From a virus: DNA of 64,000 nucleotides. A model generated the notes under the pieces. That model did not search any database and was not told the origin of the DNA. It saw only the letters and a list, made by a program, of their open reading frames with translations. Below are positions 3,991-63,475 of this stretch, piece after piece; within the stretch, counting starts at the first letter, position 1; the number at the start of each line of letters is the position of its first letter. Where the stretch lies: IMG/VR virus record IMGVR_UViG_3300027771_000009, positions 1 through 64,000 of that record. One strand, written 5' to 3'. The translations under genes were made by a program, and so were the position numbers.

Positions 3991-4376
3991 TGGCTAGAAA
4001 AAAACCAAATATTGATTTAGGTAATATTACCAAACGTAGAGATAGGGAATCCTTTAAAAACTTTGTATTAGAAGTTATAGAGGATACTTTTTTATATGAG
4101 GCAGCACCTACTACAATACCATTAGATGGTGATACTCAAACATTATTTACATTAGTGTTGGATGGGTATAGATTTGTTTACGAAGAATTAGTCGTTTCAG
4201 ATTCTAAAGATTACTTAGATGTATATTTATATGGAGTGAAGCAAATAGATAATTACGATGTAACATTTGATGCTACATCAATAACAATTACTTTTACTGA
4301 GAGTATAACGAGAGTTCCTACTGATGTGGTACGAACTGATTTTGAAATCAAAGGTAAAATTACAGAAATAGTATAA
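3990..4376 (+). CDS. Unknown small beta-rich protein
   Basis: A 128-residue protein. A basic N-terminus (MARKKPNIDLGNITKRRDRE) is followed by a short helix and then a strand-rich domain in which hydrophobic and polar residues alternate (LFTLVLDGYRFVYEELVVSD, DVYLYGVKQID, SITITFTESI). The pattern suggests a compact beta-sandwich such as a fibre attachment or adaptor domain. It overlaps both neighbours as TAATG and directly precedes the 5098-aa fibre gene, so it may connect that protein to the particle. That function is inference; no family is recognised. Confidence 0.75.
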   Translation: MARKKPNIDLGNITKRRDRESFKNFVLEVIEDTFLYEAAPTTIPLDGDTQTLFTLVLDGYRFVYEELVVSDSKDYLDVYLYGVKQIDNYDVTFDATSITITFTESITRVPTDVVRTDFEIKGKITEIV

Positions 4377-26600: not shown

Positions 26601-29600
26601 AATCACTTAGTGTAAGTGGTGGGTTATTCATAACTGGTAGTGATGTTATTGCTGCAAGTGGTTCAACATTCGTTGGTGATGGTAGTGGGTTAAGTAATAT
26701 TAACATCGCTAACTTAGCATTTGAAACTTCCTTATTAGAAAGTGGTAGTGCAACTGCAGAAATTTCACCAAACTTAGGATTACAAATAAACACATCAGCA
26801 TCCATTAGTGGAGGATTGAGTGTAGAAAAAAATATATACTCACCAATTATTAATGGTGGGCAAATTACTGGTTCACTTTATGGTGGGTACTATGGTGAAG
26901 GCGATGCAGTAGATAGGGATATTCTTATTTATGATGATGCTCGTTCTAAATATGTACCTGTACCTGAATCAACACCAACAATTGCTGAACCATTTACAAA
27001 CGTAACTGAGGTAACTATTGTACACAACTTTGATGTTGAATATCCAATAGTACAGGTTTACGAAACTGGTTCAAATGGAATGATTATTCCACAAGCTATT
27101 GAACCTCTTAATAGTAACTCTATTAAAGTAACCTTTAGTGGATTGACAAGTGGACACGTTGTTGTTGGTAGTGGAGGTTCTAAAATAAGTGGAGCAGTTA
27201 GTGGAGATAATGTAATTGGAATTGTACCATCGGCATCTAGAGCAAGTTCAGCACTTATTGCGGATACTGCAACAAATGTTGCTGGATTAGATTCAGCATC
27301 TATTGCTTTACTTAATAATTTAGAAAACTTTGTATTAAACGAACAAACCGCATCTATGACGGTGTTGAGTTCATCGTTCGCTCTTACCGCATCATATGCA
27401 TTAAACGCAGCTTCATCTGATTCATCTGGTGATATTAGTAGTGATATAACTGCTTCTATGAGTGTTGCAACCGCATCATACTCACATTACGCATTAACTG
27501 CTTCTTACGCATTAAATGCTGGAGAAGCTGGTGGGGGTGGAGATTTAACTTCGGCACAAACGGCATCGATGTATGTTTACTCATCATCTTTTTCCTCAAT
27601 TGCAGAATTTGCTTTAAACGCTGGTGGTAGTGGAGCTGGATTCCCATTTGAGGGATATGCTGAACTAACTGGTAGTTTAGATATAAGTGGTAGTTTAATA
27701 ATCACAGGTAGTACGTTTATACAAAACTTAGAAAGTGGTTCATCTGATTTCGTAGTAACATATAACGAAACAACTGGTAGATTAGAAAAAAGAGATATAG
27801 AAGCAGCGCAAGGCGCCGATGGTACTTCTGGTAGTAGTGGTACATCTGGTAGTAGTGGTACATCTGGTTCATCGGGTACTTCTGGTTCATCTGGAACATC
27901 TGGTTCAGATGGTACATCTGGTTCATCTGGTACTTCTGGTACTTCTGGAACTTCTGGAACTTCTGGGACAAGTGGTACGAGTGGTACTTCTGGTTCTTCT
28001 GGTTCGTCTGGTTCAAGCGGAAGTAGTGGTAGTTCTGGAACGAGTGGTACAACTGGTACTTCTGGTTCATCTGGAACATCTGGTACTTCTGGAACATCTG
28101 GTACTTCTGGAACATCTGGTTCATCAGGCTCAAGCGGTAGTAGTGGAAGTAGTGGAAGTAGTGGTTCATCTGGTACAACTGGTTCGCATGGAACATCTGG
28201 TTCTTCTGGTTCTTCAGGCTCAAGCGGAAGTGGTGGTACATCTGGTTCATCTGGTAGTAGTGGAACATCTGGTTCATCTGGTAGTAGTGGTACATCTGGT
28301 TCATCCGGTTCATCTGGAACATCAGGTTCTTCTGGTTCTTCTGGTTCTTCTGGAACATCGGGTTCAACCGGTAGAGAAGGTGGTAGATTATACACAGTAA
28401 CCAACAATGGCTTTAATTATTCTTTTGCTGGATATGTTGGAAATTTCCCAACATTAACATTAGTAAAGGGAGAACTTTATTACTTCGATGTAAGTGGCGT
28501 AAGTATATCTCACCCATTCGCTATACGATTAGCAGATGGTGATTCAACATCAGTACCTGGTATTGATAATAATGATACTGTTAGTGGAAAGTATGGTACC
28601 GATGTATTAATAAAATATAGAGTTCCCGAAGATGCTCCTAATAGTATAGTTTATCAATGTGTTAATCATTCTGGGATGATTGGAACGATTAGTATTGTAA
28701 ATAAAAATGGTACTTCTGGTACATCTGGTTCATCTGGTACTTCTGGAACGAGTGGGAGTAGTGGTTCGTCTGGAACTTCTGGAACATCTGGTTCTTCTGG
28801 AACATCTGGTTCTTCTGGAACATCTGGAACTTCTGGTTCAGCAGGTTCAGCAGGAACGAGTGGAAGTAGTGGTACATCTGGTACAAGTGGTAGTAGTGGA
28901 AGTAGTGGAACATCTGGTTCTTCTGGAACGAGTGGTACATCAGGTTCATCTGGTTCGTCTGGAACGAGTGGAAGTAGTGGAACATCTGGAAGTAGTGGTT
29001 CATCTGGTTCATCTGGAAGTAGTGGTACTTCTGGTACATCTGGAACTTCTGGTAGTAGTGGAAGTAGTGGTTCTTCTGGAAGTAGTGGAACATCTGGAAG
29101 TAGTGGAACATCTGGTTCATCTGGTAGTAGTGGTAGTAGTGGAAGCAGTGGTTCTTCTGGAAGTAGTGGAACATCTGGAAGTAGTGGATTGAGTGGTAGT
29201 AATGGAACTTCTGGTTCTTCTGGTTCAAGTGGAACGAGTGGGGAGAGTGGTTCTTCTGGAACTTCTGGGACATCTGGAACGTCTGGGACATCTGGGACAA
29301 GTGGAGAAGCTGGTTCATCGGGTACATCTGGAACAAGCGGTACATCTGGTGTAAGCGGTTCTTCTGGAACTTCTGGAACTTCTGGAACTTCTGGGACAAG
29401 TGGAACTTCTGGTGAAGCTGGTTCATCTGGAACGAGTGGTACGTCTGGTTCTTCTGGAACAAGCGGTACTTCTGGAACGAGTGGTAGTAGTGGTTCTTCT
29501 GGTACATCTGGTACTTCTGGTTCAAACGGAACATCTGGTACATCTGGTACATCTGGTAGTAGTGGTACATCTGGTTCATCTGGTTCATCTGGTTCATCGG

Positions 29601-34449: not shown

Positions 34450-37400
34450 ATGAAATACACAGGTAAAAACCCAAATGGTTTAAATCAAATCAGTCAAAGT
34501 TTACTATCATTAGATGTAAATGGAGTTGAGCAACTAAATATTTCAACTGATTCGGTTATTATTAACACCGAATTATCAGTTGAGAAAGGTATTTCTGCCG
34601 TTTCATATACTGGTTCGGTATTTAGTGGAAGTGAGGTGGTTACATCCACACTTACTGCAGATGGTATCGTTGTAGGTACGATAGATGGTACAATTATTAG
34701 TGGTACTGAATTTAGTGGCTCATTTAGTGGGTCTTTTGAAGGTGACGGAAATTCTATAACCAATATACCTACATCAGCATTGGTTGGTGATATCAATAGA
34801 ATTGCTGAAGGTGATTCTAACGCAACTATAACTGATGATAAACTTTCAATAAATGTTGATACTGATATAACTGGTTCAGTATTAGTAACAAACACACTTT
34901 CAGCATCTTTTGTAGAAGGTGATGGTAGTAGGTTGTTTAATATATCAGCTGATTCGGTTGGTGATATTAATAGATTACAATCTGGTTCCGCAACAGCTAT
35001 AATCTCTCCTAATGAAGGTTTAGTTACCAATGTAGGAATTGTAACTCAAAAGTATTTGGGTGTGTCTGGTTCTGCTAATATAGCTGGAGACTTAGATGTA
35101 GAAGGAACTGCAACAATCCAAAACTTAAATGTTGAGGGAATAATTACAACAACTGAGTTAAAGGCAACTTACATTTCATCATCAATAATTTACGCAACTG
35201 GTTCAAACAAATTTGGAGATGATTCTTCAGCTGTTCAAGAGTTTACTGGTTCGGTTAGAATAAAAGATACAATACAAATACCAAAATATTCATCAGACCC
35301 TGCATCTGGTAGAGTTGGTGAAATATATTACAACGATACTGATACTAACATATATCGATATACAGGTACCGAATGGTTAGAGGCAGCTGGAACGGCTGGT
35401 TCTTCTGGAACATCTGGAACATCTGGAACATCTGGTACTTCTGGTTCTTCTGGTACATCTGGTACATCTGGTTCTTCTGGAACATCTGGTGAAGATGGTA
35501 CTGATGGAAGCGGTGGTACTTCTGGTACTTCTGGTACTTCTGGTACATCTGGAACATCTGGTTCTGGTGGTACATCTGGTTCTGGAGGCACATCAGGAAC
35601 TTCTGGTACATCTGGAACGTCTGGTTCTGGTGGTACATCTGGTACTTCTGGAAGTAGTGGTACAAGTGGTACATCTGGTTCTTCTGGTGAAGATGGTACT
35701 GATGGTAGTGAGGGTACTTCTGGTACTTCTGGAACAAGCGGTACTTCTGGTACTTCTGGTTCTTCTGGTACAAAGGGAACTGCTGGTAGTGGAGGAACAT
35801 CTGGTTCATCTGGATTTGGTTCGTCTGGTACAAGTGGTAGTGGTGGAACTGCTGGAACTGGTGGTAGTGGTGGTACTTCTGGTACTTCTGGTACTTCTGG
35901 TACTTCTGGTACTTCTGGTACTTCTGGTGAAGATGGTACTGGTGGAACATCTGGGACAAGTGGAACATCTGGGACAAGTGGAACAAACGGAACTGCTGGA
36001 ACTGGTGGTAGTGGAGGTACTTCTGGTACTTCTGGTACATCGGGAACTTCAGGTACATCTGGTACATCTGGTACATCCGGATTGGATGGAGCTACTGGAA
36101 CTGGTGGAGCTACTGGTACATCTGGGACAAGTGGAACATCTGGAACATCTGGAACATCTGGAACAACCGGTACTTCTGGAACAAGCGGTACTTCTGGAAC
36201 ATCTGGAACTAACGCAACGGCTGGTTCTGGTGGAACGGCAGGTACTTCTGGAACTTCTGGAACTTCTGGTACTTCTGGAACAAGCGGTGTTGATGGTACA
36301 TCAGGAACATCTGGGACAAGTGGAACATCTGGAACATCTGGAACTAACGGAACTGCTGGTAGTGGTGGTACAAATGGAACTGCTGGAACTGGAGGAACTT
36401 CAGGAACGAACGGAACTGCAGGAACTGGTGGTACAAATGGAACTGCTGGTAGTGGAGGTACATCTGGTAGTGGTGGTACAAATGGAACTGCTGGAACTGG
36501 AGGAACTTCAGGAACGAACGGAACTGCAGGAACTGCTGGAACTGGTGGTACAAATGGAACTGCTGGTAGTGGGGGTACATCTGGTACATCTGGGACAAGT
36601 GGAACATCTGGAACATCTGGAACATCTGGAACAACCGGTACTTCTGGAACAAGCGGTACTTCTGGAACATCTGGAACGAACGGAACTGCTGGTAGTGGTG
36701 GTACAAATGGAACTGCTGGTAGTGGAGGTACATCAGGAACAAATGGAACTGCTGGTAGTGGAGGTACATCCGGAGCATTAGCATTAACTGGTACTACTAA
36801 CAATGGTTTACTTACCTATGATGGTACTGGGGCAAACGTTGAGAGTAATCTTACTTTCGATGGAACAACATTAAACTTAACTGGTAACTTAAATGTTACT
36901 GGTACACAAACAACTGTCAATACTGAAATAATTCAATTGGCAGATAATATTATAACTCTTAATTCAAACTTTACAACTGGTACTCCATCGGAGAATGCAG
37001 GTATTGAAGTATTAAGAGGTTCATCATCAACAAAATCATTTTATTGGAAAGAATCATCAGATAGATGGTATTCAGATTCAAACTTTGAAGTGTTTGGTGA
37101 TTTATATACACAACGCATAAATACTGGACAAGGACTTACTGAGGTTTACAATATGAACCAAAACGTTCGTTCAACTGATTCACCTACATTCGATGGATTA
37201 ACCATTGGTGATAGTGGTAACACAGGTACAACTCTAAACATTATAGCAACAAATACTGCTGGTTCTGGTGCACAAACCGCTATGATTAATATGAGTGGTT
37301 ATGAAGGTAGAGCAATTGGTACTATGTTTACTGATGTATCTTATAGTGGTAGAGAATGGTTTGCTGGTTTACGATATAGTGGTGGATTCGCAAATTACCA

Positions 37401-40400
37401 AATTGGATACGATTTAACTGGTGGACAAGCTGAATACGCAACGAACTCAATGCTTACCATAAACGATAGTGGAAACGCATTTTTCAAAGGGTATGTATCA
37501 GCTACGAGTTTTAGACCAACTAACATAGTAACAAATAGAATTGTTAAATTTGATGGAACTGATTTAGATGATTCTATAATGAGTGATGATGGTTCTACTG
37601 TAACTCTTAGTGGTAATTTAAGTGTAACTGGTAACATTGTTGGTGACCTAAGTGGTGTTGCTAATGATGCAAATAGATTAAAAGCCGAAGATAATAGAAC
37701 TATCTCACCATCGGAATTAGGTGTAGGTAGATTAAAATTTGGATTCACATCATACAATAATAATAATTCAGGTCCTTGGGCTGATTTCTTACATCTACGT
37801 TCGTACACCGATTCATCTGGTGGCTCGGATAACTTAGTGATGTTTAATAAGAGTGGTATTGGAATGAGAATCTGGCAACAAAGCTTCGGTTCTGCAACCG
37901 CATACTCATCTTATGTAGATGTGTTAGATACTGGTGCTGGTAACCAAACAAAGAGTGGATATATACAATCCAATTCTTCGTTAAGAGCACCGATATTCTA
38001 CGATTCAAACAATACTGGGTATTATGTAAATCCAGGAGCTACTGATTATTCAGCTGTATTTAGACAGCACGTTACAATAGGGGATAGTTCACAATATAAA
38101 CCTAACTCAGGTAATTGGGGAGCAAGATTGAACGTAGTAGATAATGTCCATGCTAAAATAACAGTTGGGCAAGATGCTAACGATATGTTGAGTGTATGGT
38201 ATGCTCATACAGGACAATCATCTGCTAAATTTGGAATGGAATCAAACCATAACTTAGAATTTATTACAAATAATAGTACTAAGTTAACAATTGATACTAA
38301 CGGTAACACCCAAGCAACAACCTCGTTAAGAGCACCGATTTTCTATGATTCAAATGATACTGGAAGATATGTAAATCCAAATGGTACATCACAACTGGGT
38401 ACTATCAATATGAACAATGGTAATTTAACCGGAGTTAATCATATTACTATTAATGACCCTGGCCCAACTGAAGGTATTTCTTGGGCTGGTGGCAATCTTT
38501 GGAGAATTGTAGAATCACCTGATAATATATCAACTAATAGCGGTGGTAATTTACAAATAATTCAAAACTCTACCCGTAGAGCAACATTTAGAACTGATGG
38601 AAGTTTAAATTTACCATCTGGTGTGTTATTATCAAATGTAACAACAAATTGGCAACAATCTGCTAATAAAACAAACTTATTAAGAGGAGGTTCTTTTAGT
38701 AATACATTAAGCAACGATACATCAACCATAAAAATATTCCCAGCAACTGCTGGTAGAGGAATTGGAAACTATTGGGGTGGTATGTACTTCATGCACTTAG
38801 ACCCTCAGAATTCTGGATGGGGCTCATCTTATACTGGTGGGCAAATGTGGATTGGTGGTAGAGTAATTGACCAACCTGGTCAAGAACGAAGTGCATTAGT
38901 ATTCGCTACAAATAATTCAACAAGTGCAGGTTCACATCCATCTGAGAGAATGACTATTTTACCTGATGGTAATGTGTTAATCGGACAAACTTCGGTATCA
39001 TATACAAATTCAGATAATACTCCGTTAGTGGGTGCTAAAACAAATAGTAAGTTACACATCAACGGTGGGATACAATTAACTAACGACAACGATGCTATCG
39101 TATTTGGTAGAGGTACTTCTACCTTTATGAAAGATGAAGAGCTTGGCTTCGGATGGGGTGGTGGTTTATATATGACCGATACTACTTACCTAAGAATCCG
39201 AAATAATAAAATTGTTTACAATACTAATGAATTTAGAGGTAATTTATTTAGAGATGTTAATAATTCCGCATACTATGTAGACCCAGCATCAACATCAAAC
39301 TTAAATTCAATTACCGCTCAAGCAATAACTGTAAAGGGTAATCAGGTAAGAACTTATAAGCATTCTGGTTCTGATTTTACAAATGGTACATTAGTACAAA
39401 CTGATATACCATCATCATCAACTTCAGGAGCATCATTTGTGTTAGAGGCAACTGGTAAAAGTTATAGTGCGGATACTCCATTCTCATTTATGGCACAGGG
39501 GTATTTGTATAATAACACTATTATAAATTCAAGTGGTGTACACTTTGGTAAACCAGGGTTCACTCAAATGAAGGTATTTAATAATGGTGGAACATTAGCA
39601 TTCTGGTGGCCAAGAGTATCTTATTGGAATTCATTCTCAGTTAACGTTAGAGATGCTGGTGGTAGTGAGTTTAATAGAGTAACCTCTATTGGTAACTCAA
39701 CTGAACCAACTGGTACTAAGAAGGTAACGATAACAATGAAGGTATCGACTGTGTATAACCAAAACATCAATACTGGTGATTTATACGCAACTCGTTATTA
39801 TGATTCAAATAGTACTGGTTATTATTTAGACCCTGCTTCTACATCATACTTAAATGATGTAAGAGCTGATATATTTTACGATAGGAATGATACAAACTAT
39901 TACACAAACCCAGCTTCAACTTCTAGGTTAAATACTGCTAATATAACAACATTAAATACCTATGGTACAACTACTTTAGGTAATGGTAACAATGATACAA
40001 CTAATATCAATGATACTCTTAAATTATGGGCTACCGATAGTGGTGATGCTCACTTCTACTTTGGTGAAAGTTCATCTAGTGGATATGGTGACCATTATTA
40101 TTGGGATAGTAGTTATACAACATATCATTACAGTAGAAATGCTGGAACTGATTCATTAATATCGAAACATGATACTCGTAATACCGATAGGATAACATAT
40201 GGTAGAAATATTTCGTTTGATGATTATGGTAAGGGAATTACAGGTAGATACTCAGCAAGTAGATACCAATTACTATTCTCTATGGGGGATGCATATCAAC
40301 TGCCTGATAGTGGTACAAGTACTGGTAACTTATATGGTGTAGCTTGGTCACATCCAAACGCTGGAGGTGCTGCAAGTAACCTAAATGACCACGGTATGTT

Positions 40401-43400
40401 AATTCTACTGAATGGTACTTTTAAGGCAGCAATATCAAGTAGAGCAGTATTTACAGATGAAGTAAGAGGAACATTATTCAGAGATTATAATAGTAGTGGA
40501 TATTACTTAGACCCTGCATCAACATCAAACTTAAATGTTGTAAATGCAAATACATTTAATGGTACTTTTAATGGTACATTAACTGGTACGGCTCAAAACG
40601 CAAATCATTTAAATACAACGAGAGATACTCCTGAGAACTCATTACAATATTGGCAAGCATCTGGTCTTGGTATTACTGAGGCACCAACAACGGATTGGCA
40701 TAATACTATAAGAATGGGACATGGTTCACCATTATCCTATTATAGTAATACATTGGCAATTCGTATGACTGGTTCTAATGTGGGTGATATCTACACCCAA
40801 ACCATTCAGAGTGGTAATAGACAAGGTTGGAAAAGACATTGGAATGATGGTATAGCTATTAATTCAACATATGATATATCGGCACCAATATTCTATGATA
40901 TAAATAATACTGGATATTATGTAAACGCTGCTTCAACTTCTAGATTTAATAGATTAGACTTCGGTAATAGTTCGTATTACATTCACTCTGGTGATTGGGG
41001 TATGCGAAACACAACACCATCTGGTTGGATTCAATTTGGACCTGCTAATACAAGTCATGCACACATTTATACTGATAGAAGTAACTTCTACTTTAATAAA
41101 CAGATTAATGTATTGGGTGGTTCTCAGATGAATCAAAGTGATGTTAGAGGTAACATATTCTATACTAAGAATAATACTGCATATTATATTGATGGTGACG
41201 GTCAATCTAGATTAAATACGCTTACCTTAGTTGGTAATCGGATTGGATTCGTTAACACATCATTTGATGCTGAAATTAGAGTAAGTGATGATAATCCAAA
41301 CGGAACTGGAGCTGAATTTGTATTCTATGGTGATACTCTTGCTGGACATGCACAACTTACTGCTAAGGTTGGTAACTTTACATCAAATGTAAGAACTCCG
41401 ATAATGTACGATTCAAATGATACTTCGTATTATATAAATGCAGCATCCGATAGTAGACTGAATGGAAAATTACAAGTAGATGGTTCACATGGTGATACAC
41501 AAATAGGTCTTAGATTACCTGCGGCTAGCAACGGAGCTGGTACTGGTGATGTAAATTTACAAATGTGGGTTTCTGAACCAGGTAATACTTGGGATTGGGC
41601 TGGATTTGGATATAACGTTAGTAATAGTATTAATGGTGGTGGTGGTGCACCAAACTTTGGTAGACATAATACTTCACATGGACAGGGGTATATGAGATTC
41701 AGTACTGGTGGTGATATCTATTTCTATAACACAAATACATCAGGTACTCGTTATCAGACGATGTCGTGGAACGCAAATAACACTGTTACTGCTAACAACT
41801 ATTTAACTGGAACAAATTCATTAAGAGCACCAATTTTCTATGATTCAAATGATACTGGACATTACTTAAATCCTGCATCTACTTCTAGACTTAATAGAAT
41901 AGATGTTGATATAATGTATGATAGAGATAATACATCATATTATGTTAGACCTGGTTCAACATCGTTATTTAATGATGCAAGAGCTAACATATTCTATTCT
42001 CGTAGTAATACTGGATACTATTCAGATCCTGAATCGACATCACGTCTAAATCAGGTAACTGCTAACTCAATTGATGCAACTAACATTAACAATACGGATG
42101 TATGGTCTGGTGATATTAATGTTGGGGGTGATGCAAATACATATTATCCTGTAACGTGGTATGGTGGAAATCAAGCTATTGTTTGTGAGATAGAAATTTA
42201 TAGAAATTACAATGAAACCGCACCTTGGGACCCAATCGGAACAGGATCTCATAAAGGTGGATTAACGTTCAGACATACTACCAACTTTGGTGGATGGGGT
42301 GGAGCATCCTATGAAAGCAATATTGAAGATTTTAGAGAATCATATACAACAATGGTAGCTGATGTACAAAGATTCGCTAATAGTAGAGGATGGTGTATAT
42401 GGTTAAGAGGTGGTGGAGCAGTATATCACGTTAGAATTAAAGGTAGAAGTGTTGGACCAACTGTAACCCTTGGAGCTTATGACCCTGGTGGTAATGGTAC
42501 TGGTGTTACATCAAGAACTGATACACCTAAAACTAATTTATATAGTAGATTTCATTTACGTAATCAATACGTATATGCTGATAGATTTTATGATAACAAT
42601 AATACTGGATATTACTTAGACCCTGCATCTACATCGTATTTAAATGATGTAAGGGCTAACATTTACTATGAAAGAGAAAACACCGCATACTACTTTGGTA
42701 GTTCGCAAGGTGATTTCAGAATGAGAAATGGTAGAATGGGTAGTGTTACCATTGAAAATGGTTCAACTCTTACATCGGTTAATGGAAATGGTAGAATTTA
42801 TATGGGTGGTAACTTCCATATTGATGCATATAATGGAAACGATATCTATGTAAACTATTATTCTAATAGAAGATTCAGAGTATTCAATGGTTCATCTAAT
42901 GAATCGTTTAGAGTAGATACTGATAGAATTGTTTACGCATACTCACAACTTCGTACTCCAATTGTTTACGATTATAATGATACTGGATATTATTCAGACC
43001 CTAGAAGTACATCTAGATTCAATGAGATGCGTGCAACGTATAGATTACACATTGGTGATGAATCTAATTTATACAATGGTGTAGTTGGTGAAGCTCGTAG
43101 ACCTGACTTAACTATTAAAGGACAGTATCCTCAGTTAAACTTAATGTCATCTGAGATTAACAATAGTACTCATGGACCTACTCTTAGATTTGTTGCATAT
43201 GATGGTGCAAACGCATCTTCTGGTAACAAAAAACATTGGGTAATTGGTACTGCTGGTACAAACGCAACCGCATTACACTTTGGATACACTCCAAATAACA
43301 ATAATCCTCATTATGGAATTGGACAAGGTTGGAGTAGTGGAAACAATGTTTCTATGTTCTGGTTACAAAACGATAGACATGTTTACGCTCAAAATGATGT

Positions 43401-46365
43401 AAGAGCTGGATTATTCAGAGATAGAAATAATACTGGATATTACGTAGACCCGGCATCTAATTCTGTTTTAAACACAGCAACTTATAATGGTACGATACGA
43501 CTTAATACTCGTCATGGTACGGTAGCAACTAACTATGGTTATGGTAACTATGGTGTATATAGTGCTTCTAGGTATCAATTATTATGGTCAATGGGTACTT
43601 CATACAATTTACCGAATGGTGGTGAAAACACTGGTAACTTATATGGTGTAGCTTGGTCACATCCAAACGCTGGAGGTGCTGCAAGTAACCTAAATGACCA
43701 CGGTATGTTAATTCTACTGAATGGTACTTTTAAGGCAGCAATATCAAGTAGAGCAGTATTTACAAATGAAGTAAGAGGAACATTATTCAGAGATTATAAT
43801 AGTAGTGGATATTACTTAGACCCTGCATCAACATCAAACTTAAATGCAGTAAATGCCAACTCTATGAATGTTGGTGGTTCACCGGTTGTAACTGGTACGT
43901 CTATTCAAAACTACACTCGTAATGTAGATGATGGTAATTTCTTCAATATTACGGATGATATGAACGCTACTGAAGTTGCTCGTCAAGTTTCTGGTGGAGG
44001 TGGAACTTCTAGACTTACTAAAGTGGATGATAACACCGCACCAGCTGCTGGTTGTTTCGAAGTAAACGGACAGTGGTCCCCAACTCATTCGGATTACATC
44101 AAAATTGATGCAAACTCCGAATATGTGTTCGAAGTTTGGATAAAATATGTTGCAGGTACTGATAGTAGTTGTGCATTGTATATGGGTGGTTCCGCATATA
44201 ACGCTTCAAAATCATACTTTGGTAATACAAATAGATATTGGGCAGCATCTTATGTAGAAGTCGATTCTAATACTAGAAACAATGGTTGGTATAAAATAAG
44301 TGGTAAAATTGGTGGTATTGGTGGAACGGCATTTACGGCAGGAACTGAATACATCAGACCGTTATTCTTATTTAACTATGCTGGTAATAGTACACATAGA
44401 ACGAGGTATTGTGGATTAAAACTTTACAAATCGGAAAAGACAGTTAGTAAATTACACTTCCATAGTCAAGGTAGATATGTACACACCGAATCGGATGAAT
44501 TGTATCCATTCTTACGTGGAGAAGGTAATCAATCTCTAGTAATCCAATCTGGTACAGGTTGGGCTAAAATGGGTTCTAGAAACACATCACATTTACATAT
44601 GGAAACGGATAGAAGTTCTTGGTACTTCTATAATCGTATTGAAACTCCATCTGATATTAGAGCAGGTTTATTCTACGATAGAAATAATACTGCTTATGTA
44701 GCAAATCCCGCTTCTACATCGTACTTTAACGATATGAGGGCAAATATCTTCTATGATAGAAACAATGCTTCATATTATGGACATTTCGATTCTACATCTC
44801 GATTTAATAGAGCAGATTTAAACGATACTCGTTCAGATATATTCTACGATAGAAATGACACTGGTTATTATATAAATCCTGCTAGTGTTAACTCTTCTCG
44901 ATTCGAAGGAGTTAATGATAGAACGAGAGCACAATTAGGAAACGCCGCATCACGTCATAGTAGTGCAGCTACATTCATGCGTAGACCAAACTATACATCT
45001 GACCAAAACTATTGGGTAGGTTCAATGGGGTGGGGTACTCAGAATATGAACAACGTATTCAATTGGGGTTCTGGATTTACTGATTCTTGGTCTAATCCAG
45101 GTAATCAACCATCTGGTACATCGCATTGGGTAGGTATACAATCACTACACTATACTAATGGTTCAACTCGTTATGGTTGGCAAATGACTGGTGGTCCAAT
45201 TGATAACCTACGATTCAGAAATCAATGGGGTGGTTCACCAAAAGCTTGGAGAACTATTCCTGTACTTGATATCAATAACGGTAATGGTGGTTCAATGTAT
45301 GCGGGCAGATATTATGATTCAAATAATACTGGATATTACGCAGACCCTGCATCTACATCTGTATTTAATGCATTAACTGTAAACGGAACATTATCAGCAA
45401 ATTTACCTTGGAGTAGAGTTACTTCAAAACCTGATGGTTGGTTAAATGCAGGAACTCTAACCAGAAATGCGGCACCAACTGGAATTAAGCCAAGTGGGTT
45501 CTATGATTCATATCAAGGTTCTGGAAATCCTACTGGTACTTGGATGTCTTACTATAATGTACGACATACCAACAGCGGCAACAACTACGGTCATCAGGCT
45601 GGTATGAGTTTCTATGATGATACCTTTTGGTTTAGAGCGTTTACAAACAATAGTTATAGACAATGGCAATTTGTACTATCATCTAATGGCACTGCACAAA
45701 CAAAATCAGGTGTATTACAATCCAACTCATCTTTAAGAGCACCGATATTCTACGATAAGGATAATACTGGGTATTATACAAAGCAAAGTGGTGTATCGGA
45801 AATGTCAAATATAGCTATTGATAGTTACATCAGACATAGAGGTGATACTAACACATATATGCAGTTCCATGCGGCTGACCAATGGAGAGTTGTAACTGGT
45901 GGTACTGAAAGATTTGAGGTGAATAACTCTCAAATCTATATGACTAGAGAATTGAGATGTACACAAGATGTTATCGCATTTTATTCTGATGAAAGATTAA
46001 AAGAAAAGACTGGTAAGATTGAATCTCCATTAGATAAGATTTCTCAATTGGATGCATTCTATTATGTAAATAATGATTTAGCAAAATCAGTTGGATATGA
46101 AGATGATAAACAACAAATAGGTTTATCAGCTCAGCAAGTTAAAGAAGTAATGCCTGAGGTTGTTCATTCAGCACCATTCGATACTGATTTTGATGAGGAT
46201 GGTAATATGTTCTCTACATCTGGTGAAGATTACTTAACTCTTAAATACGATAGATTAGTTCCATTATTAGTTGAAGGTATTAAAGAACAAACTGAAATTG
46301 TGAAATCTCAACAAAGAGAAATAGATGAATTGAAGGAAATGGTAAAACTTTTACTAAATAAATAA
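34450..46365 (+). CDS. Giant collagen-like tail fibre with S74 intramolecular chaperone (3971 aa)
   Basis: An 11.9-kb frame. Residues about 1-313 are SGS-type beta repeats like those of the 3921-aa fibre. Residues 314-775 are a collagen-like Gly-X-X tract rich in GTS, GTA and GSG. From about 850 to 3800 the protein has some 22 copies of a repeat centred on (A/G)xIFYDSNNTGYYVDPASTSRLN. These are separated by diverse beta domains rich in Trp/Tyr that could bind glycans. Residues from about 3844 are a peptidase S74 chaperone (SDERLKEKTGKIESPLDKIS). It should trimerise the fibre and then be cut off. The N-terminal SGS repeats may bind the particle. It lies 13 nt after a small beta-protein gene and ends before a hairpin and the sheath promoter. 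Confidence 0.9.
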   Translation: MKYTGKNPNGLNQISQSLLSLDVNGVEQLNISTDSVIINTELSVEKGISAVSYTGSVFSGSEVVTSTLTADGIVVGTIDGTIISGTEFSGSFSGSFEGDGNSITNIPTSALVGDINRIAEGDSNATITDDKLSINVDTDITGSVLVTNTLSASFVEGDGSRLFNISADSVGDINRLQSGSATAIISPNEGLVTNVGIVTQKYLGVSGSANIAGDLDVEGTATIQNLNVEGIITTTELKATYISSSIIYATGSNKFGDDSSAVQEFTGSVRIKDTIQIPKYSSDPASGRVGEIYYNDTDTNIYRYTGTEWLEAAGTAGSSGTSGTSGTSGTSGSSGTSGTSGSSGTSGEDGTDGSGGTSGTSGTSGTSGTSGSGGTSGSGGTSGTSGTSGTSGSGGTSGTSGSSGTSGTSGSSGEDGTDGSEGTSGTSGTSGTSGTSGSSGTKGTAGSGGTSGSSGFGSSGTSGSGGTAGTGGSGGTSGTSGTSGTSGTSGTSGEDGTGGTSGTSGTSGTSGTNGTAGTGGSGGTSGTSGTSGTSGTSGTSGTSGLDGATGTGGATGTSGTSGTSGTSGTSGTTGTSGTSGTSGTSGTNATAGSGGTAGTSGTSGTSGTSGTSGVDGTSGTSGTSGTSGTSGTNGTAGSGGTNGTAGTGGTSGTNGTAGTGGTNGTAGSGGTSGSGGTNGTAGTGGTSGTNGTAGTAGTGGTNGTAGSGGTSGTSGTSGTSGTSGTSGTTGTSGTSGTSGTSGTNGTAGSGGTNGTAGSGGTSGTNGTAGSGGTSGALALTGTTNNGLLTYDGTGANVESNLTFDGTTLNLTGNLNVTGTQTTVNTEIIQLADNIITLNSNFTTGTPSENAGIEVLRGSSSTKSFYWKESSDRWYSDSNFEVFGDLYTQRINTGQGLTEVYNMNQNVRSTDSPTFDGLTIGDSGNTGTTLNIIATNTAGSGAQTAMINMSGYEGRAIGTMFTDVSYSGREWFAGLRYSGGFANYQIGYDLTGGQAEYATNSMLTINDSGNAFFKGYVSATSFRPTNIVTNRIVKFDGTDLDDSIMSDDGSTVTLSGNLSVTGNIVGDLSGVANDANRLKAEDNRTISPSELGVGRLKFGFTSYNNNNSGPWADFLHLRSYTDSSGGSDNLVMFNKSGIGMRIWQQSFGSATAYSSYVDVLDTGAGNQTKSGYIQSNSSLRAPIFYDSNNTGYYVNPGATDYSAVFRQHVTIGDSSQYKPNSGNWGARLNVVDNVHAKITVGQDANDMLSVWYAHTGQSSAKFGMESNHNLEFITNNSTKLTIDTNGNTQATTSLRAPIFYDSNDTGRYVNPNGTSQLGTINMNNGNLTGVNHITINDPGPTEGISWAGGNLWRIVESPDNISTNSGGNLQIIQNSTRRATFRTDGSLNLPSGVLLSNVTTNWQQSANKTNLLRGGSFSNTLSNDTSTIKIFPATAGRGIGNYWGGMYFMHLDPQNSGWGSSYTGGQMWIGGRVIDQPGQERSALVFATNNSTSAGSHPSERMTILPDGNVLIGQTSVSYTNSDNTPLVGAKTNSKLHINGGIQLTNDNDAIVFGRGTSTFMKDEELGFGWGGGLYMTDTTYLRIRNNKIVYNTNEFRGNLFRDVNNSAYYVDPASTSNLNSITAQAITVKGNQVRTYKHSGSDFTNGTLVQTDIPSSSTSGASFVLEATGKSYSADTPFSFMAQGYLYNNTIINSSGVHFGKPGFTQMKVFNNGGTLAFWWPRVSYWNSFSVNVRDAGGSEFNRVTSIGNSTEPTGTKKVTITMKVSTVYNQNINTGDLYATRYYDSNSTGYYLDPASTSYLNDVRADIFYDRNDTNYYTNPASTSRLNTANITTLNTYGTTTLGNGNNDTTNINDTLKLWATDSGDAHFYFGESSSSGYGDHYYWDSSYTTYHYSRNAGTDSLISKHDTRNTDRITYGRNISFDDYGKGITGRYSASRYQLLFSMGDAYQLPDSGTSTGNLYGVAWSHPNAGGAASNLNDHGMLILLNGTFKAAISSRAVFTDEVRGTLFRDYNSSGYYLDPASTSNLNVVNANTFNGTFNGTLTGTAQNANHLNTTRDTPENSLQYWQASGLGITEAPTTDWHNTIRMGHGSPLSYYSNTLAIRMTGSNVGDIYTQTIQSGNRQGWKRHWNDGIAINSTYDISAPIFYDINNTGYYVNAASTSRFNRLDFGNSSYYIHSGDWGMRNTTPSGWIQFGPANTSHAHIYTDRSNFYFNKQINVLGGSQMNQSDVRGNIFYTKNNTAYYIDGDGQSRLNTLTLVGNRIGFVNTSFDAEIRVSDDNPNGTGAEFVFYGDTLAGHAQLTAKVGNFTSNVRTPIMYDSNDTSYYINAASDSRLNGKLQVDGSHGDTQIGLRLPAASNGAGTGDVNLQMWVSEPGNTWDWAGFGYNVSNSINGGGGAPNFGRHNTSHGQGYMRFSTGGDIYFYNTNTSGTRYQTMSWNANNTVTANNYLTGTNSLRAPIFYDSNDTGHYLNPASTSRLNRIDVDIMYDRDNTSYYVRPGSTSLFNDARANIFYSRSNTGYYSDPESTSRLNQVTANSIDATNINNTDVWSGDINVGGDANTYYPVTWYGGNQAIVCEIEIYRNYNETAPWDPIGTGSHKGGLTFRHTTNFGGWGGASYESNIEDFRESYTTMVADVQRFANSRGWCIWLRGGGAVYHVRIKGRSVGPTVTLGAYDPGGNGTGVTSRTDTPKTNLYSRFHLRNQYVYADRFYDNNNTGYYLDPASTSYLNDVRANIYYERENTAYYFGSSQGDFRMRNGRMGSVTIENGSTLTSVNGNGRIYMGGNFHIDAYNGNDIYVNYYSNRRFRVFNGSSNESFRVDTDRIVYAYSQLRTPIVYDYNDTGYYSDPRSTSRFNEMRATYRLHIGDESNLYNGVVGEARRPDLTIKGQYPQLNLMSSEINNSTHGPTLRFVAYDGANASSGNKKHWVIGTAGTNATALHFGYTPNNNNPHYGIGQGWSSGNNVSMFWLQNDRHVYAQNDVRAGLFRDRNNTGYYVDPASNSVLNTATYNGTIRLNTRHGTVATNYGYGNYGVYSASRYQLLWSMGTSYNLPNGGENTGNLYGVAWSHPNAGGAASNLNDHGMLILLNGTFKAAISSRAVFTNEVRGTLFRDYNSSGYYLDPASTSNLNAVNANSMNVGGSPVVTGTSIQNYTRNVDDGNFFNITDDMNATEVARQVSGGGGTSRLTKVDDNTAPAAGCFEVNGQWSPTHSDYIKIDANSEYVFEVWIKYVAGTDSSCALYMGGSAYNASKSYFGNTNRYWAASYVEVDSNTRNNGWYKISGKIGGIGGTAFTAGTEYIRPLFLFNYAGNSTHRTRYCGLKLYKSEKTVSKLHFHSQGRYVHTESDELYPFLRGEGNQSLVIQSGTGWAKMGSRNTSHLHMETDRSSWYFYNRIETPSDIRAGLFYDRNNTAYVANPASTSYFNDMRANIFYDRNNASYYGHFDSTSRFNRADLNDTRSDIFYDRNDTGYYINPASVNSSRFEGVNDRTRAQLGNAASRHSSAATFMRRPNYTSDQNYWVGSMGWGTQNMNNVFNWGSGFTDSWSNPGNQPSGTSHWVGIQSLHYTNGSTRYGWQMTGGPIDNLRFRNQWGGSPKAWRTIPVLDINNGNGGSMYAGRYYDSNNTGYYADPASTSVFNALTVNGTLSANLPWSRVTSKPDGWLNAGTLTRNAAPTGIKPSGFYDSYQGSGNPTGTWMSYYNVRHTNSGNNYGHQAGMSFYDDTFWFRAFTNNSYRQWQFVLSSNGTAQTKSGVLQSNSSLRAPIFYDKDNTGYYTKQSGVSEMSNIAIDSYIRHRGDTNTYMQFHAADQWRVVTGGTERFEVNNSQIYMTRELRCTQDVIAFYSDERLKEKTGKIESPLDKISQLDAFYYVNNDLAKSVGYEDDKQQIGLSAQQVKEVMPEVVHSAPFDTDFDEDGNMFSTSGEDYLTLKYDRLVPLLVEGIKEQTEIVKSQQREIDELKEMVKLLLNK
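35389..36774 (+). repeat. Collagen-like Gly-X-X tract in third giant fibre
   Basis: Encodes residues 314-775 as GTS, GSG, GTA, GTN and GED triplets without proline. It is richer in Gly and Ala than the tracts in the 3921-aa fibre. Reverse-strand open frames with VPxVPxVP repeats are by-products of this composition. Confidence 0.9.
40321..40537 (+). repeat. 217-bp near-identical repeat, copy 1
   Basis: Matches 43630-43846 base for base except G40456/A43765. It covers a fibre segment starting TGNLYGVAWSHPN and running through the YYLDPASTSNLN repeat. The flanking sequence upstream codes for similar protein but has diverged at DNA level. Confidence 0.9.
43630..43846 (+). repeat. 217-bp near-identical repeat, copy 2
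   Basis: Second copy of the duplicated segment at 40321-40537, in direct orientation, with a start-to-start distance of 3309 bp (a multiple of three, so in frame). Confidence 0.9.
45979..46365 (+). other. Peptidase S74 intramolecular chaperone domain
   Basis: The last 130 residues of the 3971-aa fibre. S3846 and K3851 (SDERLK) match the Ser-Lys dyad of the endosialidase chaperone family. Further family features are LDKISQLDAFYY, QIGLSAQQVKEVMPEVV, LKYDRLVPLLVEGIKEQ and a C-terminal coiled coil. Cleavage at S3846 would release a fragment of about 126 residues. Confidence 0.85.
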
Positions 46366-57493: not shown

Positions 57494-57511
57494 ATATAAG
57501 GTTTTGTGATT

Positions 57512-57868
57512 ATGACAAATAACGATAATTATAATAATATTAAGAAATTACCAAATGGTTTGGAAAAGTTAAAAATATTAACTTATATCCCTAAGCCAAC
57601 AAAAGGTGATTATTTAACTGGTTACATAACTCGATTTTTTATACAAAAGGTAAATGATAAAAGTTCACCTATATATGAGATTAAAGCAAGTTATGCATCT
57701 AATATAGAATCCAAAGTTTATTATGCGTTAACATCATTGGATTGGAGATTAAATGGAACACCCGAACAAATTAAGAAATCAAACGCAGCATCGGTGAAGT
57801 TAGCATCAGCTGATATTCCTAAGATTGGCTTATATTTACCAAACCTATTACAATTTCATAAGAAATAA
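57512..57868 (+). CDS. Unknown small protein after hub gene
   Basis: A 118-residue protein starting at the ATG at 57512; a GTG 6 nt upstream is possible but less likely. It contains YLTGYITRFFIQKVNDKSSP and YYALTSLDWRLNGTPEQIKK, a beta-then-helix pattern with a basic surface. I recognise no family. It ends the tape measure/baseplate operon, 18 nt after the hub-like gene. It could be a baseplate wedge or accessory part. A host-type promoter begins within 2 nt of its stop, so transcription of the next gene is separate. Confidence 0.7.
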   Translation: MTNNDNYNNIKKLPNGLEKLKILTYIPKPTKGDYLTGYITRFFIQKVNDKSSPIYEIKASYASNIESKVYYALTSLDWRLNGTPEQIKKSNAASVKLASADIPKIGLYLPNLLQFHKK

Positions 57869-57919: not shown

Positions 57920-58876
57920 ATGAAAGTTACCATAGTAGTAAGAACATTCAAAAGAGCAGAATTCTTAAAACAAGCATTATCTTCAATCCAATTACAAACG
58001 TATAAAGATTGGGAAGTTATTTTGTTTGATGATAGTGGTTCGACTGAAAATCTTAACATCTATAATACTTTCAAAGCTTACAATCCCACTAAACGTATAG
58101 TTTACATCACATCAGCAACTCCTTATGATATGTTTAAGGATTCTTGGACTATTTCACCTAAGTTATCAAAGGGAGAATTGATAGTAAGGCTAGATGATGA
58201 TGATTTATTGACTGAAACCTCAATTGAATTTATTGTTAGTACCTATATAAAGAACCCATCATTGGATTTTAGTTATGGTTCGGCTACATTCTTTGAAAAT
58301 GATGAACTACGAAGTAAGATAACCACACAAACACCAATAGAGGCACCAAAGACAGTTGATATATGGGAAGGTTACTTACATGAACACCCATATAACATAC
58401 CTTGGAGGTTTAAGCACAATCATTTTGATGAACCACAGCATCATAGTTCAATAATTCATTGTTCTAAGGCTAATCATATGTGCGTATATCATACATACGT
58501 AATGCGAGTATCATCTATATTGAAGGTTATTGATAAAGTGGAGGTAACATCCAACTTTGTTGATGATTTGGAAGCAATGGGTATAATGGATTATTTGGGA
58601 TTATCACATACTTCCATAAAAAAGACATTAACTTACGCTAGAATCCATAATAATGGTAGAGTTACTGATAGTAAAGGAAATGGTGAAGATACGTTATGGA
58701 ACAACATACTCAGAATCAGAGATGATGTAGAAAATTATAGAACTAAAGGATTTCAATCTAATATTTACCCTAACTCAATAGAGGGTGATGAGAATGATGA
58801 AATAACGGATTATCAAAGACAGAGATTTAGTGAATATCTAAGTAAAATAAAAAATAATTCAAAAACATTGGGATAA
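57920..58876 (+). CDS. Family 2 glycosyltransferase
   Basis: A 318-residue GT-A fold enzyme that should transfer a sugar from a nucleotide-sugar donor. The N-terminus is classic for the family (VTIVVRTFKRAEFLKQALSS, then WEVILFDDSGS). The metal-binding DxD motif is in RLDDDDLL (D92-D95). The second half has a His-rich stretch (FKHNHFDEPQHHSS, about 165-178) and MRVSSILKVIDKVE, with conserved-looking D residues in VDDLEAMG. No signal peptide or membrane segment is visible, so it acts in the cytoplasm. Target unknown: phage DNA bases, virion proteins (the Ser/Thr-rich collagen-like fibres are an attractive candidate) or host glycans. It has its own promoter, unlike the structural genes upstream. 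Confidence 0.85.
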   Translation: MKVTIVVRTFKRAEFLKQALSSIQLQTYKDWEVILFDDSGSTENLNIYNTFKAYNPTKRIVYITSATPYDMFKDSWTISPKLSKGELIVRLDDDDLLTETSIEFIVSTYIKNPSLDFSYGSATFFENDELRSKITTQTPIEAPKTVDIWEGYLHEHPYNIPWRFKHNHFDEPQHHSSIIHCSKANHMCVYHTYVMRVSSILKVIDKVEVTSNFVDDLEAMGIMDYLGLSHTSIKKTLTYARIHNNGRVTDSKGNGEDTLWNNILRIRDDVENYRTKGFQSNIYPNSIEGDENDEITDYQRQRFSEYLSKIKNNSKTLG

Positions 58877-58903: not shown

Positions 58904-60172
58904 ATGGTAATAGTTGAATCGCAAAGTGAAGTAAATGAGTTCCTGCAAATGTGGGAAACAACTCCATCTACAATAATTCCGATTTGGAATGATTTGGATA
59001 AGCATCCTATGAATAATGAGTTATCATTTCTATTCATTAGGTTGGGAAATACTGACTTTATCCTTATATACAACCATATTGATGGTAAATCCCAACAAAT
59101 AGACCTTTCAACCTCTACACAACCAAAATGGGTATTGAATAAGAAGGGTTTACTACAAATGGATACCAACATCCAAAACTTATTTGATATATCTACACAT
59201 ACCTTCTTTGAGGAGAGTAAATTATTAGAATTAAAAAACGAAGAGAAGCAATTCATCAACCATTATAGTAGAATGGGTATACGAGATAATTTAGGTAAGA
59301 TAGCACCTTTAATGAAATGGGGTGAACACCTTAAATCATTTGTAGACTCTCTTACATTACCTACTCCAACTCCTTCTTGGATGAATAACGATGTGATTCC
59401 CCTTCTCTCAGATATAGAACGTTTTGGGGTTCGGGTCGATGAGAAAAAATTTATTGATAGATGGCCTCAAGCTACTAAACACTTAAAAGATACAACCCTT
59501 TATACCGAATACAACCCATACACCATTACATCCCGTCCATCCAACCGATACGGAGGTATTAACTTTTCGGCGTTGAACAAAAAGGATGGTACGAGAGATG
59601 TGTTTGTACCAAAAGAGAATAGTATCTTTCTACAAATGGATTATGATGCATATCACCCAAGAATCATTGGTAAGTTGATTGATTACGAATTACCGAAAAC
59701 TTCCGTTCACCAATGGTTGGCAGACCAATATGGAGTTCCATACGATGAATCAAAGGGAATTACCTTTCAATTACTATATGGTGGTATACCTGAGGAGTTT
59801 GATGAAATACCTTATTATAAGGGTGTTAGAGAGTTTATTGAGAAATTATGGAGTAAGAGTAGTGAAGTGGGTTATCTTCAAACACAACATAGGAGAATCC
59901 CTCTGAGTAGTATAGAAGGAGTGAATCCGCAGAAGTTATTTAATTATTTACTACAAGCGACTGAAACTGAGTTGAATATGGGTATAATGAAGAAAGTTGT
60001 TGAGTTTATTAAACAAACAAAAATTGAGCTTACTCTTTATACTTATGATTCATTTTTATTTAGTTATCCATTAGATACTCCTAAAGAAGATGCAAAAAAA
60101 TTAAAAGAAATTATAGAATCCTTTGGATTTCCTATTAAAGCTGATTGGGGAACCGATTATGGAAAACTTTAA
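58904..60172 (+). CDS. Short family-A DNA polymerase, thumb nearly absent
   Basis: A 422-residue protein. Palm/finger motifs are in order. FGVRVDEKKF (about 169-178) is the LxxIExxGVxVD entry. TITSRPSNRYGGINFSAL (about 206-223) corresponds to TGRLSS--PNLQ. Motif A is at D246 (MDYDAYHPRI). Motif B is at K284/F288/Y292/G293, with normal K+4/F+4 spacing but Tyr280 in place of the usual Arg. Motif C is YTYDSFLF with catalytic Asp382, Ser instead of Glu next to it. Only about 30 residues separate the first two motifs; E. coli Pol I has about 140, which form the thumb. The first 165 residues occupy the exonuclease position but show no DxE motif. It has its own host-type promoter. Active as a polymerase or not, it is not a fragment. 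Confidence 0.75.
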   Translation: MVIVESQSEVNEFLQMWETTPSTIIPIWNDLDKHPMNNELSFLFIRLGNTDFILIYNHIDGKSQQIDLSTSTQPKWVLNKKGLLQMDTNIQNLFDISTHTFFEESKLLELKNEEKQFINHYSRMGIRDNLGKIAPLMKWGEHLKSFVDSLTLPTPTPSWMNNDVIPLLSDIERFGVRVDEKKFIDRWPQATKHLKDTTLYTEYNPYTITSRPSNRYGGINFSALNKKDGTRDVFVPKENSIFLQMDYDAYHPRIIGKLIDYELPKTSVHQWLADQYGVPYDESKGITFQLLYGGIPEEFDEIPYYKGVREFIEKLWSKSSEVGYLQTQHRRIPLSSIEGVNPQKLFNYLLQATETELNMGIMKKVVEFIKQTKIELTLYTYDSFLFSYPLDTPKEDAKKLKEIIESFGFPIKADWGTDYGKL

Positions 60173-62450: not shown

Positions 62451-62852
62451 ATGAAAACACAATTACTGTGTACATTTACAACAAAGGCTGAGTTACAGAA
62501 GGTTCTACAAGATATTAGAGAGACTTATGTAATCGTATATAACTACATCTACATCTTGCAAAACAAAGCAGATTTAGATGAATTATACATTACATATAAT
62601 ATCAATACTGAATATAGACCAACCCAACCATTGAGAGATACGATATTGATTCATCGTAAAAAAGAATCAAACTCACTATATACAATTAATGCTTTAAATC
62701 AACTTGTAAGAGAGGAGAATGGTGGAGTATTGGATAAATCCTTTATCATTGATTGGCAGAAATTTAGAAACTCAATAATACTTACAAATACAGAGGGTAC
62801 TAAGAAAATCCAAACTCGTATCTTTGAGGTTATAGAATTTAATCAAAAATAA
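62451..62852 (+). CDS. Unknown small protein
   Basis: A 133-residue protein with an alternating strand/helix pattern (LLCTFTTKAELQKVLQDIRE, then YVIVYNYIYILQNKADLDEL). It has a basic middle (LIHRKKESNSLYTINALNQL) and a C-terminal IDWQKFRNSIILTNTEGTKK. No known motif. The first half has the look of a small alpha/beta fold of the ferredoxin type. It starts the unit that also carries the probable cell-wall enzyme 11 nt downstream, behind a late-type box. Function unknown. Confidence 0.75.
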   Translation: MKTQLLCTFTTKAELQKVLQDIRETYVIVYNYIYILQNKADLDELYITYNINTEYRPTQPLRDTILIHRKKESNSLYTINALNQLVREENGGVLDKSFIIDWQKFRNSIILTNTEGTKKIQTRIFEVIEFNQK

Positions 62853-62863
62853 CAGAGTAACAA

Positions 62864-63475
62864 ATGGCAAAATTTACAAGAGAACAAATCGAAGAAACAT
62901 TAAAAGGTAAAGGTTATAAGTACTTTACAAATGATAAGGGGTATGATGTTAACATTGTTGGTATTAGAAATTCCGATACACATGGTGAGGTAACAAATAA
63001 GTTTGATGATACTTTAACAATATCATATAAGGATTCAGATGGTAAGTGGATTTATAATGAATATAAAGCAACAACTGACCCTGGTTCACATTGGGAAAAG
63101 AACTTATTGAACAAAGATGGTGTTGCAATTCTAAAACCAGGTCAATATAGAGGTTCACATAAAATTGGATTACACCAAGGTAAGTATGAAGCACTAAGAC
63201 AACAAAAGCCCGTTAAAGTTTATAGAGATAAAAACAAAGATGGTAAGTATGATATGATTGAAGAGAATGTACAAGAGGGTATATTTGGAATCAACATTCA
63301 TAAAGCTGGTAAGTTTGAAAATGGTTCAACTCAAATTGATAAATGGTCTGCTGGTTGTCAAGTATTTTCTAAACAATCCGATTTCTATGAATTTATGGAA
63401 ATATGTAATAAGGCTAAAGATGTATGGGGAAACTCTTTCACATACACATTAATAGAATCTACCGATATCGTATAG
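62864..63475 (+). CDS. Probable cell-wall-active enzyme (L,D-transpeptidase-like His/Cys motif)
   Basis: A 203-residue protein. The second half has GINIHKAGKFENGSTQIDKW followed by SAGCQVF. That gives H146, S162 and C165 in the H-(15)-SxGCQ arrangement of YkuD/L,D-transpeptidase-type catalytic centres. I also recall ATTDPGxxW, AILKPGQYRGSHKIGLHQGKY and VYRDKNKDGKYD from phage lysis-type proteins with this fold, so this family may cleave or rearrange peptidoglycan cross-links. There is no signal peptide; export would need a holin or injection. It ends a late-type unit, followed by a terminator, a typical position for a lysis gene. No holin was recognised next to it. Confidence 0.65.
   Translation: MAKFTREQIEETLKGKGYKYFTNDKGYDVNIVGIRNSDTHGEVTNKFDDTLTISYKDSDGKWIYNEYKATTDPGSHWEKNLLNKDGVAILKPGQYRGSHKIGLHQGKYEALRQQKPVKVYRDKNKDGKYDMIEENVQEGIFGINIHKAGKFENGSTQIDKWSAGCQVFSKQSDFYEFMEICNKAKDVWGNSFTYTLIESTDIV

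Follow-up and report, generated by a model that had tools for sequence, protein, structure and literature searches.

A thumbless, exonuclease-dead family-A DNA polymerase in a conserved replication gene block of a phage lineage

Introduction

Without a thumb, a family-A DNA polymerase would be expected to lose its grip on primer-template DNA, and the locus described here raises the question of what a thumbless enzyme of this type may do for a phage. The window, the whole stretch of 64,000 nucleotides analysed here, is part of an 80,880-base virus contig from IMG/VR, which belongs to a large phage from an aquatic source. A preliminary description based on its letters had pointed to a 422-aa family-A polymerase almost without a thumb, and offered three explanations: a minimal polymerase, a repair or primer-processing enzyme, or a subunit whose thumb is supplied by a partner protein.

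Polymerases of this kind are already published under the name divPolA1, which Yutin et al. 2024 (PMC11348598) reported from 14 phages, the immuto phages among them. In their account, divPolA1 is an additional PolA in which the thumb is truncated, the exonuclease inactivated and the catalytic residues conserved. Its gene lies beside replication genes, and the same genomes possess a regular PolA, PolB or PolC as well. What we add are details: a wide spread, a syntenic block with an orphan protein termed p133, and an invariant His and Tyr in the active site. The text of PMC11348598 does not address the steric-gate His, the linkage to p133 or the wide spread.

Results

Identity and fold of the protein

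58904..60172, + strand: divPolA1 gene with ATG start, encoding a thumbless, exonuclease-dead family-A DNA polymerase of 422 aa (open reading frame, PHROG_17 match, AlphaFold2 model, PDB matches)

The protein matches PHROG_17 (DNA polymerase) over residues 182-421 (E = 1.8e-14). With the Pfam model DNA_pol_A (PF00476) it scores 26.7 bits (E = 3.3e-6) and does not reach the curated cut-off of 34.3, which marks it as a diverged family-A enzyme. A profile of the divPolA1 family retrieved Klenow from the PDB (E = 7.1e-9). We computed an AlphaFold2 model from an alignment of 69 sequences, all of them the window protein or fetched related loci (mean pLDDT 93.3, pTM 0.90). Over residues 1-422, this model aligns with residues 301-875 of the large fragment of Bacillus Pol I, with Z 26.6 and 17% identity for 393 residues at 3.7 A, and Klenow is its top Foldseek match (E = 3.7e-19). 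As modelled, the protein thus folds like Pol I and contains motifs A, B and C. Its alignment over the whole length together with the first rank of Klenow indicates that palm and fingers are complete and that no second thumb is located elsewhere. The original assignment to family A agrees with all these results, and the suggested structural comparison with Klenow returned the Klenow fold minus the two thumb helices.

The gene evolves under purifying selection: across 12 pairs of homologues, dN/dS ranges from 0.06 to 0.27, and in every pair except one or two the N-terminal half shows the higher value, the polymerase half the lower.

Thumb and exonuclease domain

59438..59527, + strand: thumb remnant, residues 179-208 (34 versus 122 residues; two short helices in the model)
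58904..59377, + strand: exonuclease-like domain without catalytic acids, about residues 1-158 (model alignment to Bacillus Pol I; no DxE)

In E. coli Pol I, 122 residues separate GVKI (at 544) from TGR (at 666). The corresponding distance between the start of GVRV (residue 175) and TSR (209) is only 34 residues in the window protein, as had been estimated from the sequence (about 30 residues in place of more than 100). The modelled thumb region contains helices 180-186 and 188-193 and nothing more. A complete thumb elsewhere in the chain, raised in the preliminary description as an outcome that would overturn this view, was looked for in the AlphaFold2 model of the full 422 aa and is absent. 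The same short segment is common to 109 complete homologues of 408-452 aa; a hidden frameshift or sequencing error that conceals further codons, the other objection raised there, is thereby ruled out.

From residue 1 onwards, the model has its counterpart in Bacillus Pol I in the exonuclease-like domain. Reading of residues 1-158 revealed no DxE motif. Exonuclease motifs II and III were placed by eye only, because global hhalign comparisons with single sequences did not align the N-terminal half correctly. This mapping is consistent with the reported replacement of all three exonuclease aspartates in divPolA1 (PMC11348598). The earlier statement that no exonuclease motif is visible therefore holds for the catalytic acids, whereas the exonuclease fold itself is still there in the model (about residues 1-158).

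Active-site residues

59528..59569, + strand: TSRPSN...N element, residues 209-222; R211 = Klenow R668 (hhalign), present in 109/109 homologues
59633..59674, + strand: motif A, residues 244-257 (QMDYDAYHPRIIGK); D246 = D705, H251 = E710 (steric gate), R253 = R712; D246 and H251 in 109/109
59741..59782, + strand: motif B, residues 280-293; Y280 at the R754 position, K284 = K758, F288 = F762, Y292 = Y766; the latter three in 109/109
60035..60055, + strand: motif C, residues 378-384 (LYTYDSF); Y381 = H881, D382 = D882, S383 = E883; Y381 and D382 in 109/109

All 109 complete homologues were read at these positions, with Klenow numbering transferred by hhalign with E. coli Klenow. D246, K284, F288, Y292, R211, Q351 (Klenow Q849) and D382 are identical throughout, and the five motif residues named in the preliminary description (K284, F288, Y292, D246 and D382) were all placed correctly. 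Two further positions are just as invariant and differ from Klenow: H251 replaces Glu710, the residue that acts as the ribonucleotide steric gate in E. coli Pol I (PMC13228545), and Y381 replaces His881. The full-length PolA of the immuto phage reads DYTSLEPH in motif A, with Glu at the matching site; the steric-gate His is thus specific to the divPolA1 group and not a trait of phage PolAs in general. The Arg of motif B and the Glu of motif C, already noticed to be replaced, are Tyr280 and Ser383 in the window protein. Among the homologues, position 280 (Klenow Arg754) is Tyr, Val, Thr, Leu or Ile, and position 383 (Klenow Glu883) is Ser in 72 and Ala in 37.

In comparison to E. coli Klenow, the protein therefore shares the palm, fingers and exonuclease-like folds and D705, K758, F762, Y766, D882, R668 and Q849. 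It differs by a GVxI-to-TGR distance that is 88 residues shorter, the loss of the exonuclease acids, and the replacements E710H, R754Y, H881Y and E883S. Judged from sequence comparison, the invariant residues and the low dN/dS argue for a working enzyme. With Glu710, Arg754, His881 and Glu883 all changed, its activity could be low or altered.

Relationship to divPolA1 and distribution

The window protein is almost certainly a member of divPolA1. It agrees with the published kind in every feature tested: homology, thumb, exonuclease, catalytic residues, occurrence in addition to a regular polymerase, and replication genes downstream. Its identity to gp001 of Flavobacterium phage immuto is 29.7% over 71% (tblastn, E = 1e-36; MW353176, NC_055915), and to members in named phage records about 24-39%. 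The immuto phage members co-align with it with the same invariant columns, and immuto gp001 has the same truncated thumb, dead exonuclease and intact palm, a regular polymerase besides it in the genome, and the same replication genes downstream. The divPolA2 proteins of barbaviruses are likewise second PolAs in genomes with a regular polymerase and have no thumb that can be recognised, but differ by an unrelated N-terminal globular domain, the lack of an exonuclease domain and a variable neighbourhood (PMC11348598). Membership in divPolA2 was rejected, since the N-terminal part of the window protein matches the exonuclease-like domain of Bacillus Pol I; this group is set apart here by its published description.

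divPolA1 extends far beyond the 14 published genomes. In a profile scan of viral contigs, at least 578 stretches passed tblastn, the best 80 of which were read. One relative (L051, 10001-11138) has a frame that is interrupted after 83 codons, which reflects either a damaged gene or a fault of the assembly. Scanning of bacterial genomes gave only five matches (L225-L229), all in metagenome-assembled bins, three of which are named Flavobacteriales or its members (names include Flavobacteriales, Winogradskyella and Flavobacteriaceae). These five relatives are probably phage contigs and point to Bacteroidota hosts.

A conserved gene block with p133

57506..57868, + strand: p120, 120-aa protein upstream of divPolA1 (same strand in 86 of the 88 loci with room)
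62451..62852, + strand: p133, 133-aa orphan protein downstream of divPolA1, candidate partner (50 of the 51 loci with room)

The neighbourhood shows a constant order on one strand, gp53-like - hub - p120 - divPolA1 - p133 - gp32-like SSB - RecA - FEN - DnaB, in which SSB and the later genes often lie outside the 10 kb flank of the compared loci. The neighbours are named by Pfam as gp32, RecA (RecA/UvsX), 5_3_exonuc and DnaB_C, and NCBIfam concurs. FEN, a Pol I-type 5'-nuclease, reaches 141.6 and 136.8 bits with models of DNA polymerase I and at most 97.8 bits with those of stand-alone 5'-3' exonucleases, and its acidic motifs are legible in the sequence. In contrast to E. coli Pol I, the 5'-nuclease is here encoded by a separate gene.

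p133 is the only candidate found for a partner that might lend a thumb. In a reverse search starting from p133, divPolA1 was present in 25 of 25 loci having at least 9 kb upstream, and in the annotated phage collection both occur in the identical six records and no others. The protein carries an invariant motif (HRKK..N..YTIN) and has no match in Pfam, PHROG or NCBIfam. Its AlphaFold2 model is confident (pLDDT 93). Assignment to a known fold was rejected, because neither Foldseek (best E 0.08) nor VIA (best Z 6.1 over 64 residues) gave a clear match in the PDB and its sequence profile retrieved nothing convincing there.

Between p120 and divPolA1, a glycosyltransferase-like gene (57920-58876, +; 318 aa, PHROG GtrB-like) occurs in 18 of 88 loci, and this site is a variable cargo position within the otherwise constant block. 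A 203-aa protein encoded between p133 and SSB (62864-63475, +) matches phrog_3000 and an endolysin PHROG and is found in 7 of 51 relatives. Elsewhere, the window contains three giant open reading frames on the + strand, 4376-19672 (5098 aa), 20603-32368 (3921 aa) and 34450-46365 (3971 aa), the second of which is overlapped by long antisense frames of up to 661 aa.

Other replication proteins

The suggested search for a replicative polymerase elsewhere in the genome found a match to a regular family-B polymerase (PolB) in the same contig (80253-80876, cut by the contig end), 20 kb downstream of divPolA1. Eight other IMG/VR records and Microcystis phage Mel-JY01 have PolB as well, with complete frames of 841-855 aa in related records and Mel-JY01. 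The immuto phage has a full PolA, and LR756508 a PolC match plus PolB matches. With PolB in the same contig and regular polymerases in divPolA1 phages, the window protein can be regarded as an accessory PolA. A role as sole replicative polymerase was rejected, since this contig and the majority of the records examined contain a regular polymerase. An accessory PolA fits the proposed minimal polymerase, repair or primer-processing enzyme; the preliminary reading as a whole is partly supported.

A DnaG-type primase of about 310 aa is encoded in the related large genomes G004, G009, G011, G012 and G014 and in immuto, which makes a primase role for divPolA1 unlikely. No PF01807 primase was found in this contig, G001 and G007, all three possible fragments, nor in Mel-JY01 and LR756508; several related contigs are fragments, so that such absences are weak. 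An ATP-type DNA ligase (PF01068) was detected in one of seven genomes. The search for a PF02916 sliding clamp gave zero matches, likewise in the control genomes. Beyond the window, a thioredoxin gene (CGPC, 89 aa; contig positions 72490-72759) directly follows an nrdA-like reductase gene. The ribonucleotide reductase is therefore its likelier client, and thioredoxin is disfavoured as a processivity factor.

Discussion

We propose, with a probability of roughly one half, that divPolA1 is an accessory family-A polymerase of a phage lineage with T4-like tails, which acts with FEN as a gap filler in the manner of a split Pol I. Jointly, the two proteins would perform the work of the single-chain E. 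coli Pol I: FEN would trim RNA primers or flaps, while divPolA1, expected to be distributive, would fill short gaps at Okazaki junctions or recombination intermediates, whatever the family of the replicase. Since the loss of a thumb costs processivity, it should do little harm in short gaps and great harm in genome replication. Without the thumb, divPolA1 presumably needs FEN, SSB or p133 to remain on DNA, and the steric-gate His may permit extension from, or tolerance of, ribonucleotides. That divPolA1 is kept whichever replicase family is present suggests a task separate from that of the replicase. The invariant core residues, the Klenow-like model, purifying selection, the constant gene order, the regular replicase and the DnaG-type primase of relatives speak for this role. 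Against it, the gene order fits translesion or recombination-coupled synthesis equally well, a regular PolB might fill gaps alone, an ATP-type DNA ligase is found in just one of seven genomes, activity could be low or altered because of the four changed active-site residues, and the literature that we found contains no measured activity for any divPolA1 member. A stricter form of the proposal, an obligate two-protein 'split Pol I' that is held by FEN or p133 and uses a ribonucleotide-tolerant His gate at RNA-DNA junctions, is speculative, and we give it a small chance.

Foremost among the rivals, if still improbable, is a polymerase of the translesion or end-joining-like type. As a PolA without exonuclease, similar to polymerases nu and theta, it would act at damaged or recombining ends with RecA and SSB. 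The dead exonuclease domain, the common block with RecA and SSB, and the presence of nu and theta among the Foldseek matches are in agreement with such a function. However, these matches rank below Klenow, the chain is too short for the insertions of nu and theta, and the position with FEN and a helicase suits replication equally; moreover, the gene is found in every testable locus of the lineage, which would be unusual for an enzyme devoted to damage only. The next rival, for which the prospects are slimmer, is a replisome subunit that borrows a thumb or processivity factor (p133, SSB or another protein) for long synthesis, as T7 DNA polymerase does with thioredoxin. The T7 enzyme is likewise a phage family-A polymerase alongside a separate helicase, but it is the replicase, with an active exonuclease and a full thumb that carries the thioredoxin-binding insertion. 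A lost thumb combined with invariant catalytic residues, as well as the co-inheritance of p133 in all testable loci, would fit a borrowed thumb. On the other hand, a regular replicase is already there, p133 may be a mere lineage marker and its fold lacks a clear match, and the nearby thioredoxin probably serves the adjacent reductase.

A primase or RNA polymerase is a distinctly unlikely third candidate. The missing thumb could be read in this way, as could motif C with its YDS or YDA, which recalls the HDS in T7 RNA polymerase, and the invariant His at the rNTP gate, where the full PolA of immuto keeps Glu. Nevertheless, F288 is retained as in DNA polymerases, related large genomes encode their own DnaG-type primase, and the N-terminal part is exonuclease-like. 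We consider a catalytically inactive relic or structural adaptor very improbable indeed: four usual active-site side chains are altered, which would fit such a protein, but the metal-binding aspartates and dNTP-binding residues are invariant, and in nearly all pairs, with one or two exceptions, selection is stronger on the polymerase half than on the N-terminal half.

Returning to divPolA1 as an accessory gap filler, a thumbless polymerase that holds a fixed place across a phage lineage next to any kind of main polymerase suggests a role that the main polymerase cannot assume. The invariant His gate, the separate 5'-nuclease and the co-inherited p133 provide concrete and cheap points at which a thumbless enzyme can be tested biochemically. 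If true, the two-protein 'split Pol I' would be a mode of action of family-A polymerases that, as far as we found, has not been described before.
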